Shown piece after piece: positions 5,499 to 10,683 of a stretch of 64,000 bases of DNA; within the stretch, counting starts at the first letter, position 1; every line of letters starts with the position of its first letter. Location of the stretch: NCBI GenBank assembly GCA_949524905.1, contig CATINC010000017.1, positions 124,001 through 188,000 of the forward strand. Direction: 5' to 3'. The position numbers and the translations under genes are program-made. The notes below the pieces were generated by a model that worked only from the letters and a program-made list of their open reading frames with translations, searched no databases and had not been told where the DNA came from. Source of the stretch: Opitutia bacterium UBA7350 (GTDB lineage Bacteria; Verrucomicrobiota; Verrucomicrobiia; Opitutales; Coraliomargaritaceae).

Positions 5499-6173
5499 CT
5501 AGTTGGTTTTGTCATTATCTGGTTCGCTACGCAGTAGGTAACTTGCCTTTAAAGTTGTCACGGTTTCTTCCAAGTAGGCTTTAAAATTAGTAAAGCGAGG
5601 TACTATTCCCCGTGTTTCAAACAGGCTTTGTTTGAGCGCAGATGAGGTGCAAAGCGTGTGAATAGCAAGATCTAAGACACCTTCAGGTTCATCGACCGAC
5701 TTGAGGAATTGAATTAGCTCTTTAGGTATGGCAGCTCCAAATTTAATTTGTAGTTTAATTAAGCTGATTATTTCTGGTGCAATGGTTTCAACTATATCAA
5801 AAGAACCGCCTGGTTCGCTAGTGAATGGGCGAATTTGAGCCATGCGAAAAGGCTTTTCTTGTGTGATGGCCTCAAGAGCAACGCGGGTAAGGCCCTGAAG
5901 GATTAGGTTAGCCGTGCCATCTTCATTGGTTTTACAGGCGCGAATCACCCCAATCCCGGCAATTATGCAAGGCGTTTCATTTTCTGGATCTGCTTCTGCT
6001 GAAGCATCGAGAGCAGCTACCGCAAAAACACGGTCGGTTCTTAAAACCTCAGCTAACATTTGCCGATACCGCTCTTCAAAAATATAAAGTGGCATCATGG
6101 CATGTGGGAATAGCACCGCACCGCTCATAGTCATGACGGGTACTTCACGCGGGATCTCTATTTCCTGTTGCAT
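5499..6173 (-). CDS. Lon N-terminal (substrate-binding) domain protein
   Basis: This is a 224-residue soluble protein made of a single LON substrate-binding domain without ATPase or protease parts. The N-terminal strand VPVMTMSGAVLFPHAMMPL and the following IFEERYRQML helix are diagnostic. Stand-alone LON-domain proteins are common in bacteria, but their function is unresolved. It lies 14 bp downstream of the helix-hairpin-helix gene at 6188-6472 and probably shares its transcript. There is no ribosome binding site before ATG 6173. It converges with the LolA-like gene with only 10 bp between stops. Confidence 0.88.
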   Translation of the reverse strand: MQQEIEIPREVPVMTMSGAVLFPHAMMPLYIFEERYRQMLAEVLRTDRVFAVAALDASAEADPENETPCIIAGIGVIRACKTNEDGTANLILQGLTRVALEAITQEKPFRMAQIRPFTSEPGGSFDIVETIAPEIISLIKLQIKFGAAIPKELIQFLKSVDEPEGVLDLAIHTLCTSSALKQSLFETRGIVPRFTNFKAYLEETVTTLKASYLLRSEPDNDKTN

Positions 6174-6545: not shown

Positions 6546-6597
6546 TGTGACACCACTTTGTCTCACATATTCAAGTTGTCACAGAAAAGTGTGACAA
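6546..6597. promoter_or_regulatory. Cluster of TGTGACA palindromes upstream of dnaK
   Basis: A perfect inverted repeat TTGTCACA-N6-TGTGACAA spans 6576-6597. A third copy of the TGTGACA heptamer lies at 6546-6552, paired less well with TCACA at 6563-6567. The block sits about 95-150 bp upstream of the -24/-12 motif, the usual distance for an enhancer-binding-protein site, and about 20 bp upstream of the sigma-70-like -35 element. The regulator is unknown; the site could also act on the divergent gene at 6472. Confidence 0.55.
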
Positions 6598-6616
6598 TAC
6601 GTCGCTTTTTGAAGCC

Positions 6617-6645: not shown

Positions 6646-6692
6646 TTTTTAAAACGATATTTATCAACGTCTTATGATATTTTTACAGAGAG

Positions 6693-6708
6693 TGGCACGA
6701 GCATTGCA
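6693..6708 (+). promoter_or_regulatory. Exact -24/-12 (sigma-54, RpoN) promoter motif before dnaK
   Basis: TGGCACG-N4-TTGCA matches every conserved position of the sigma-54 consensus, with the GG and GC dinucleotides 10 bp apart as required. The expected start point is around 6718-6720, essentially at the dnaK ATG (6720). Use of this promoter would therefore give a leaderless mRNA, unless a later start codon is used. Candidate activator sites lie upstream at 6546-6597. Confidence 0.55.
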
Positions 6709-6719
6709 AACAGATTGTC

Positions 6720-8666
6720 ATGTCTAAAATTATAGGTATCGATTTAGGAACAACCAATTCTTGCATGTCCGTGATGGAAGGTGGGGAACCCGTTGTTATC
6801 CCCAATTCCGAAGGTGCTCGTACGACGCCCTCGATTGTTGCATTCGCCAAAAATGGCGAGCGACTCGTAGGTCAGGCGGCTAAACGCCAAGCGGTAACAA
6901 ATCCCAGCAACACCATATTTTCTGCCAAACGTTTTATCGGGCGCAAATACAATGAAGTTCAGGAAGAATCCGCCAGCTTACCATATAAAGTAGTCGCAGG
7001 AAAAAATGGCGACGCGTATATCGAGTGTGAAGTCGAGGGCAAGACTGAGACCTTCGCACCCGAACAGATCGCAGCTATGGTACTGCAAAAGCTCAAAGCT
7101 GATGCGGAGTCATACCTTGGAGAAAAAGTAACCGAAGCTGTTATAACCGTCCCCGCATACTTTAACGATGCTCAGCGTCAGGCGACCAAAGATGCAGGCC
7201 AAATTGCAGGTCTGGAGGTCAAGCGTATCATTAATGAACCTACTGCTGCTGCGCTTGCCTATGGTCTCGATAAGGGACAGGACGAGGTAATCGCAGTCTA
7301 CGACCTCGGCGGTGGTACTTTCGATATTTCCATTCTCGAGATAGGTGACGGTGTCTTTGAAGTCAAAGCGACCAATGGCGACACTCACCTTGGTGGTGAT
7401 AACTGGGACAGCGCCCTCATCAATTTCCTTGTAGAGGAATTTAAGAATGAGCAAGGCATTGACCTTCGCTCCGACAAGATGGCACTTCAACGCTTAAAAG
7501 AAGAAGGTGAAAAAGCTAAAATTGCGCTTTCCTCAACCCAAAGCACCGATATCAACTTGCCTTTCATTACTGCCGATGCTTCCGGGCCGAAGCATCTTAA
7601 TATTACACTGAGCCGCTCAAAGCTAGAGCAGATCTGTGACCAGCTCTACAAGCGCACCATCCCTCCCTTTGAATCTTGCCTCGCTGACTCTGGTCACAGC
7701 GCCTCTGATATCGGCGAACTTGTGCTTGTCGGCGGTATGACCCGTGCGCCTAAGGTTCTTGAAATTGCCAAAGGCCTTGCGGGTAAAGATCCTCACCAGG
7801 GGGTTAATCCCGATGAAGTTGTTGCCATTGGTGCTGCAATTCAGGGCGGGGTTCTACAAGGCGACGTACGCGATGTTTTGCTCCTTGACGTGACTCCACT
7901 GACGCTCGCGATCGAGACCGCCGGCGAAGTAGCTACGCCCATGATTGAGCGCAATACCACCATTCCTTCCAAGAAGAGCCAAACCTTCTCTACTTACGCC
8001 GACAACCAAACCGCAGTAGATATTAAAGTCCTACAAGGTGAACGTCCTATGGCTAAGGATAACAAAATGCTTGGTAACTTTCGTCTCGACGGAATTCCCG
8101 CCGCCGCACGTGGGGTCCCCCAAATCGAAGTGACCTTCGACATCGACGCCAACGGTATCCTTAATGTCAGTGCTAAGGATCAAGGCACTGGAAAAGAGCA
8201 AAAAATTACGATTTCCGGATCCTCCGGCCTCGATAAGGACGAAGTTGAGAAACTTAAACGTGAGGCTGAGGCCCATGCTGCTGAGGATGAAAAAATTAAA
8301 GCAGGTGTCGAAGCACGCAATGAACTCGACAACATCGTTTACCAATCCGAAAAGCAGATAGAGGAACTGGGTGAAAAGATTCCCGCCGATAAAAAGACGG
8401 AACTCGAAGAAGCCATCAAGGAGGGTAAAGCCGTCCTTGAAAACAGTGACGCTAGTGTAGATGCCCTCAAAGCGCCTAAGGAAAAAATCATGACGATTAT
8501 GCAATCCTTTGCGCAGGACCTCTACGGTCAGGCGGGTGCCGAAGGCGCTACTGGTCCTCAACCCGGCAATTCTGAGGCTGAAGGGGAGAGTGCTTCTAAA
8601 GCGCCCGATACCGACACCGTCGATGCTGATTTCGAAGTTATCGATGACGATAAAAAAGAGAGCTAA
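6720..8666 (+). CDS. dnaK: Chaperone DnaK (Hsp70)
   Basis: This is a 648-residue ATP-dependent Hsp70 chaperone, full length for the family (about 640). The N-terminal nucleotide-binding domain starts with [18 protein letters not shown] and contains the phosphate-binding [14 protein letters not shown] around residue 195. The interdomain linker is [13 protein letters not shown]. The substrate-binding domain and helical lid follow, ending in an acidic tail [15 protein letters not shown]. No Shine-Dalgarno sequence precedes ATG 6720. It is followed 46 bp later by groES and then groEL; grpE, dnaJ and hrcA are not nearby. Codon use favours C-ending codons and CTC/CTT leucine, unlike the flanking genes, as expected for a highly expressed gene. 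Confidence 0.98.
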
Positions 8667-8712: not shown

Positions 8713-8988
8713 ATGAAAATCAAACCACTCGGAGAACGCGTTCTTTTAAAACGCATTGAAGAAGACGAACAAGTTCGCGGCGGCATCATCATTCCCGATT
8801 CCGCTAAAGAAAAGTCACAGGAAGCTGAAGTCGTTGCGCTTGGCACCGGCAAAGCGGATGACCAACCCTTCCACGTGAAGGTGGGCGACAAAGTGCTCCT
8901 GCCAACCTATGGCGGCAGCCAAGTAAAAATCGACGGTGTAGAATACACCTTAATCAATGAAGAAGATATCCTCGGTGTAGTTGCCTAG
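8713..8988 (+). CDS. groS: Co-chaperonin GroES (Hsp10)
   Basis: This 91-residue protein forms the heptameric lid of the GroEL cavity. It begins [20 protein letters not shown], has the mobile loop that binds GroEL ([18 protein letters not shown]) and ends with the roof and C-terminal strands [14 protein letters not shown]. It lies between dnaK and groEL in the same orientation, 42 bp from groEL, with no terminator or CIRCE element in either gap. The start is ATG 8713, without a ribosome binding site. Confidence 0.97.

Positions 8989-9018: not shown

Positions 9019-10683
<1,665 letters not shown>

Follow-up and report, generated by a model that had tools for sequence, protein, structure and literature searches.

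Control of dnaK by HrcA/CIRCE or by RpoH is textbook heat-shock regulation. The locus studied here raises the question whether dnaK can be placed under an activator-dependent sigma-54 (RpoN) promoter instead. The sequence analysed was a 64-kb stretch of the genome of Opitutia bacterium UBA7350, referred to as the window. A literature search, with most subscription papers outside its scope, returned no publication on sigma-54 control of dnaK in Verrucomicrobia, and the papers found contained no description of how these bacteria control the gene.

Materials and methods

For the phylum set, 115 Verrucomicrobiota genomes were drawn, and 109 of them contributed a dnaK upstream region. The set was assembled without the five genomes lacking a DnaK match, without the second dnaK of G128 and without G015, whose DnaK match has no N-terminus and whose upstream region stands in the family set as L015. 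The family/order set contained 47 dnaK upstream loci. Among the 57 relatives, genomes without a dnaK DNA match or matched only inside the gene were left out; at L025 the match begins inside dnaK, so that it has no upstream region. Promoters were scored within 200 nt by counting 11 defined bases, with GG and GC obligatory in place. G059 (10 nt upstream only) and L027 (26 nt) were counted as misses. Upstream sites were sought in the dnaK upstream regions by a palindrome-constrained motif search that was started 40 times at random and given no motif in advance.

Results

The locus and its promoter box

Features of the locus are collected in Table 1. The dnaK start is secure because DnaK equivalog models match from residues 1-3, and dnaK, groES and groEL likely share one operon. 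A gene for a stand-alone Lon-type N-terminal domain (5499-6173, - strand) is oriented divergently to dnaK, and a 94-aa gene separates the two. Among named dnaK loci, the nearest were Opitutia/Opitutales drafts with 75 and 73% DnaK identity (records of the own genome are possibly absent from this listing).

Table 1. Coordinates of observed and predicted features at the dnaK locus (window positions).
Feature	Position	Strand	Basis
Distal enhancer half-sites, TGTGACA-N6-TGTCTCA	6546..6565	+	sequence; similar repeats in relatives
Further inverted half-site, TGTGACA (TGTCACA on +)	6577..6583	-	sequence
Proximal 17-bp enhancer palindrome, TGTGACA-ATA-CGTCGCT, proposed EBP-A site	6590..6606	+	16.4 bits, unsupervised profile
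IHF-like site, TATCAACGTCTTA (WATCARN4TTR, 9/9)	6662..6674	+	fixed offset in family
Sigma-54 -24/-12 promoter, TGGCACG-N4-TTGCA	6693..6708	+	exact match and conservation
Predicted transcription start, about 6719	6718..6720	+	predicted from -12 C at 6707 and usual sigma-54 spacing
dnaK	6720..8666	+	DnaK equivalogs above cut-off
groES	8713..8988	+	46 bp after dnaK; likely same operon
groEL	9031..10683	+	42 bp after groES; likely same operon

A preliminary description of the window had reported an exact sigma-54 motif before dnaK. This was confirmed: TGGCACGAGCATTGCA at 6693-6708 on the + strand matches TGGCACG-N4-TTGCA exactly. The box has GG at -24 and GC at -12 with ten bases between them (consensus TGGCAC-N5-TTGCW), and 27 nt separate it from the dnaK ATG at 6720, counted from the T of TGG to the A of ATG. 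The pattern TGGCAYN5TTGCW matched once in the window versus 0.20 expected, and seven times in the 1.67-Mb genome (reversed pattern, 0). Considering same-strand ORFs only, four of the other six genomic matches were located within such ORFs and two beside short ones only. With up to two mismatches allowed, the five window matches were at chance level (5.8). A single 12-base match is near chance genome-wide and is weak evidence alone; the bare word proves little because four of the six other matches sit inside ORFs, and the case therefore rests on position and conservation. A chance motif, which the single match could not reject, was rejected by conservation across the phylum.

At least 10 of the 11 defined bases were present in 91 of the 109 phylum regions, versus none in reversed sequences and a mean of 0.66 (maximum 3) in 50 shuffles. 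The full 11/11 was reached in 57 regions (reversed 0, shuffle mean 0.06) and at least 9/11 in 100 (reversed 5, shuffle mean 4.3). Among 73 dnaK loci titled as other phyla, one scored at least 10/11. Within the phylum, 23 of 32 families held at least one genome at this level. In the family/order set, 45 of 47 loci scored at least 9/11; loss of the motif in close relatives, named beforehand as evidence against the promoter, was not seen. Across 30 family genomes, the -24/-12 box was the most conserved block of the dnaK upstream region. By eye, the upstream neighbour gene varied among relatives while the elements before dnaK persisted, for example with an apparent tRNA gene in L018. The box at 6693-6708 is very probably a working sigma-54 promoter.

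Eighteen of the 109 phylum genomes scored below 10/11. The three f36 genomes kept TGGCAC-N5-GTG and lost GC. Two order genomes (G096 and G135) had a damaged -24 GG, G139 had the upstream palindrome only, and G165 had neither promoter nor palindrome. TGGCAC-N5-GTG(T/A) was observed before dnaK at L226, L214 and L237 (G090, G103 and G140), where the -12 GC is replaced and the palindrome stays; G090 and G103 gave two rpoN-domain matches each. At L110, L155 and L161 (titled Bacteroidetes, Chitinophagales and Flavobacteriales), TGGCAT-N5-TTGA was located about 44-62 nt before dnaK and is perhaps a variant sigma-54 box.

Spacing to the start codon

At sigma-54 promoters, the -12 box is usually followed by +1 at a distance of about 12 nt. 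Here the -12 C is at 6707, and this spacing would place +1 at the ATG or 0-2 nt before it, in agreement with the earlier prediction that the start point falls on the ATG. In the family/order set, the box-to-start distance was 27 nt in 33 of 47 loci and 28-30 nt in nine more; at three further loci it was 36, 64 and 65 nt. At the 36-nt locus (G047) an ATG is located a few codons upstream of the aligned start, and hence also close to the box. Shine-Dalgarno-like words were found at 9 of 57 loci with the box 26-31 nt from the start versus 69 of 87 with the box farther away (Fisher p 2e-14, with relatedness ignored and four genomes counted twice). In the majority of other families, dnaK is preceded by a leader that contains a Shine-Dalgarno; the 27-nt spacing also occurs in three of four f23 genomes and at one dnaK copy of G128 (f27). 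Leaderless mRNAs begin no more than a few nt before their start codon and lack a Shine-Dalgarno. In the window's order, the 27-nt spacing suggests such a dnaK mRNA, as the preliminary description had proposed for the window, and the sequences fit this proposal: the 27-nt distance prevails, and Shine-Dalgarno-like words are rare where the box is this close to the start.

The upstream palindrome

All eight top runs shown of the motif search yielded TGnGACAnnnTGTCnCA, with the general 17-bp form TGnGACA-N3-TGTCnCA. Palindromes of at least 10 bits were present in 131 of 143 pooled regions, with a median start 104 nt before the -24 box (the pooled palindrome and spacing counts include G004, G011, G048 and G054 twice, once from the family/order set and once from the phylum set). 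The best-scoring site in the window is the proximal palindrome at 6590-6606, at a distance of 103 nt from the -24 box. TGTGACA occurs four times in all 64 kb, three of these at 6546-6596. Within 300 nt, 97 of 109 phylum genomes reached at least 10 bits versus 4 in reversed sequences and 4 of 73 other-phyla loci; phylum and order counts include training regions, and reversed sequences, other phyla and EBP-A promoters (see below) were outside training. Promoter (at least 9) and palindrome occurred jointly in 90 of 109 phylum genomes. The palindrome-to-box distance was 101-105 nt in 27 of 28 family-list loci and 113 nt at L031, which belongs to another family. The palindrome thus falls in the range of about 80-200 bp upstream in which sigma-54 activator sites are placed.

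Five of the six f35 genomes had a palindrome below 10 bits despite an 11/11 promoter. At the f35 loci L239, L243, L244, L251 and L261, repeated TGGCACGG/TGTGCCA words were seen instead of TGTGACA palindromes, perhaps reflecting a shifted activator specificity. The RpoN domain at these f35 genomes also scored lower than in most others.

The IHF-like site

The IHF consensus is WATCARN4TTR. Of the 30 family genomes, 15 had a site matching at least 8 of its 9 defined bases at exactly the window's position, -30/-31 relative to the -24 T; averaged across all offsets, the number was 0.23 per offset. In the whole set, matches of at least 8/9 were only weakly enriched (59 of 136 vs a shuffle mean of 30) and 9/9 matches were better separated (14 vs 1.9). 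The candidate site is convincing solely as a fixed offset in the window's family.

RpoN, activators and heat-shock regulators

The genome encodes one rpoN, whose protein has all three canonical RpoN domains including the DNA-binding domain, so that a lack of rpoN cannot be held against the promoter. Matches to rpoN were obtained in 114 of the 115 phylum-draw genomes and in 52 of 57 relatives. G047 was rejected as a refuting rpoN-less relative: it is a 91% complete draft that kept an 11/11 promoter and a 13.2-bit palindrome, and a missing contig is the likelier explanation of its lack of a match.

The genome contains two true sigma-54 activators and one ClpC-type AAA protein. EBP-A (L033, G000:C13; 456-475 aa depending on the start) has a receiver with Asp, an AAA+ domain with GAFTGA and a Fis-type HTH_8, as in NtrC/AtoC-type response regulators. 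Its best NCBIfam model is AtoC, and it is not claimed as AtoC because its 482 bits fall below the equivalog cut-off of 714. EBP-A was found in 111 of 115 phylum genomes (E below 1e-110), as a single copy in most. G058, G123, G163 and G139 gave no match at this threshold; the first three kept the promoter, and in G058 a strict palindrome was listed despite the missing match. The second activator, L032, is located beside hisB and has a different helix-turn-helix from EBP-A. An AtoS-like kinase gene directly precedes EBP-A in G073, and a kinase-like ORF takes that place in G109. EBP-A and htpG (Hsp90) form a divergent gene pair in the three genomes that belong to the window's genus (L033 2481-2574 in G000:C13). 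This neighbourhood was rejected as a general rule, as only these three of 30 EBP-A loci showed it and the other 27 did not.

When trained on dnaK regions only, a palindrome profile reached 10 bits or more upstream of EBP-A in 34 of 56 genomes, compared with 1 of 1120 control windows. By group, the palindrome preceded EBP-A in 34 of 42 genomes in the order and 0 of 14 outside it; in the family it mostly begins 18 nt before the EBP-A start codon. A strict palindrome pattern that matched only dnaK and EBP-A in the own genome was discounted, as it was drawn knowing both sites (reversed control, 1). In G042, a reduced genome of 0.9 Mb (L316 470-1648; L054), EBP-A ends at 392 aa, before the helix-turn-helix, and is the sole activator kept among matches at 1e-30. 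In this single event the dnaK promoter TGGCACGAAATTTGCT was kept at 11/11 and the palindrome was lost (best score -5.2 bits). The earlier suggestion that the dnaK unit might answer an enhancer-binding protein is supported, as far as sequence comparison goes, by palindromes about 104 nt upstream and by a conserved activator whose own gene has the same site.

HrcA was found in 0 of 115 phylum genomes (7 of 14 control genomes positive), and no RpoH equivalog scored above cut-off in these 115 (2 of 14 controls). A divergent sigma-70-family heat-shock factor may be present in these genomes. No CIRCE was found in the window with up to three mismatches allowed. The proposed RpoN dependence of dnaK gains support from the presence of rpoN, from the phylum-wide conservation of the motif and from the negative searches for HrcA, CIRCE and an RpoH equivalog. 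A clpC-like gene just 3' of a possible McsB-type kinase gene (L322 748-3228, G000:C4) represents another protein-quality unit.

Alternative explanations

The box could be a minor, condition-specific start, with main dnaK transcription by a housekeeping sigma from TTAAAA-18-TATGAT (6649-6678) and a leader of about 35 nt. This site is a 9/12 sigma-70-like match, and passages on Chlamydia describe tandem sigma-66/sigma-54 promoters at hrcA (PMC7482065, PMC8762339). However, sigma-70-like sites were no commoner than in shuffles (2 vs 3.1), the conserved word overlapping the site fits the IHF-like site, and A2 and T6 of the -10 hexamer were kept in only 4 of 30 family genomes, where the -24/-12 box is best conserved. 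The sigma-70 promoter was rejected as not conserved, and main transcription from it appears improbable. Still less probable is a reading of the box not as a promoter but as an operator, with a repressor on the conserved GCA...TGC repeat, or as a word present by chance. GCA-N7-TGC is indeed an inverted repeat, and GAGTGCTAA-like words are found near the box in some relatives. Against this, conservation does not follow the symmetry of the repeat (TGGCA to the left; TGC and then mostly T to the right), the sigma-54 form fits 91 of 109 genomes and the box is coupled to the upstream palindrome at a fixed spacing. Reading the GAGTGCTAA-like words as half-CIRCE was rejected: the other half is missing, the window has no CIRCE and no HrcA was found in the 115 genomes.

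A real sigma-54 promoter might also be served by another activator, either L032 or one common to many promoters, that binds the palindromes while EBP-A serves other genes. L032 exists in the same genome, and outside the order none of the 14 genomes examined had the own-gene palindrome of EBP-A. Within the order, however, 34 of 42 genomes have the dnaK-type palindrome at the EBP-A gene. Among activators, EBP-A is the one found nearly throughout the phylum, and G042, which kept only EBP-A at 1e-30 and without its helix-turn-helix, lost the palindrome. We regard a different activator as unlikely, to about the same degree as main transcription from the housekeeping site.

Discussion

We consider it quite probable that a sigma-54 promoter drives dnaK, and probably groES-groEL, from a leaderless transcript, with EBP-A acting at the palindromes and an IHF-like bend between. 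RpoN-RNA polymerase would sit at the -24/-12 box as a closed complex. EBP-A would bind the TGTGACA palindromes (6546-6606) and be carried to the polymerase by a bend at the IHF-like site (6662-6674), and ATP hydrolysis would open the complex; dnaK and probably groES-groEL would then be made as one leaderless mRNA. EBP-A may likewise bind the palindrome of its own gene, over the start codon, probably in autorepression. The signal is probably protein-folding or heat stress, relayed by an AtoS-like histidine kinase; no result of the sequence tests points to nitrogen. The comparative-sequence part of this explanation is the promoter box, the palindrome, their spacing, the presence of rpoN and EBP-A and the lack of HrcA and of RpoH above cut-off. 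From these we infer EBP-A binding, the role of IHF, the start site, the signal and the operon.

E. coli glnA/NtrC and pspA/PspF have an enhancer about 100 bp upstream, sometimes an IHF bend, a -24/-12 box and an AAA+ activator. The layout proposed here is the same, whereas the target is the main chaperone operon and a 5' leader appears to be missing. HrcA/CIRCE and RpoH (sigma-32) regulons share the target genes; here the searches for HrcA, CIRCE and an RpoH equivalog were negative, and control would be by activation through an enhancer-binding protein. The nearest likeness is with Chlamydia. There, according to passages of PMC7482065 and PMC8762339, the published sigma-54 promoter at the hrcA operon forms a tandem pair with a sigma-66 promoter under HrcA/CIRCE repression, and the activator CtcC lacks a DNA-binding domain. 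Common to both systems are a PVC host, a sigma-54 promoter at the operon that contains dnaK and an AtoC-like response regulator as activator, in the present case a proposed one. Unlike in Chlamydia, HrcA is absent here, EBP-A has a Fis domain and enhancer palindromes, and dnaK is the first gene and apparently leaderless. The own-genome EBP-A has HTH_8 and differs in this from the chlamydial CtcB/CtcC system, in which the activator lacks a DNA-binding domain; EBP-A of G042, without its helix-turn-helix, parallels CtcC as described in part of PMC7482065.

Passages of PMC4989314 describe AtoC as conserved across the PVC superphylum and HrcA as absent from Verrucomicrobia, with which the count of 0 in 115 agrees. 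A 2025 survey reported in its available passages that GroEL, GroES, GrpE, DnaJ and DnaK groups are enriched for predicted sigma-54 promoters in Planctomycetota and Bacteroidota and that Bacteroides grpE and groES are sigma-54-dependent (PMC12316311). Those passages name Opitutia for motility rather than for chaperones and mention no dnaK activator, enhancer site or leaderless transcript. The phylum-wide Verrucomicrobiota dnaK promoter, its enhancer, its likely activator and its leaderless form are new within the literature searched.

In most of Verrucomicrobiota, the usual heat-shock regulators have apparently been replaced at dnaK by an activator-dependent sigma-54 promoter. A broader reading, for and against which we see equal chances, is that EBP-A and its kinase form a single ancestral sigma-54 switch of the two-component type, dedicated to the main chaperone gene and standing in for HrcA and RpoH across the phylum. 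The chaperone transcript would have become leaderless among Opitutales-like lineages and, possibly on separate occasions, elsewhere in the phylum, and the HTH-less activator of Chlamydia would be a reduced remnant of this system. The result connects the reports on Chlamydia, Planctomycetota and Bacteroidota and would add a phylum-wide case of a central chaperone operon depending on sigma-54. It names a testable promoter, enhancer, transcription factor and target for cultivated strains, including gut Akkermansia. If the broader reading is true, the heat-shock response of these bacteria would be positively controlled and ATP-driven. The leaderless arrangement raises the question of translation under stress, as with such a transcript a stress chaperone may use a separate route of translation initiation.
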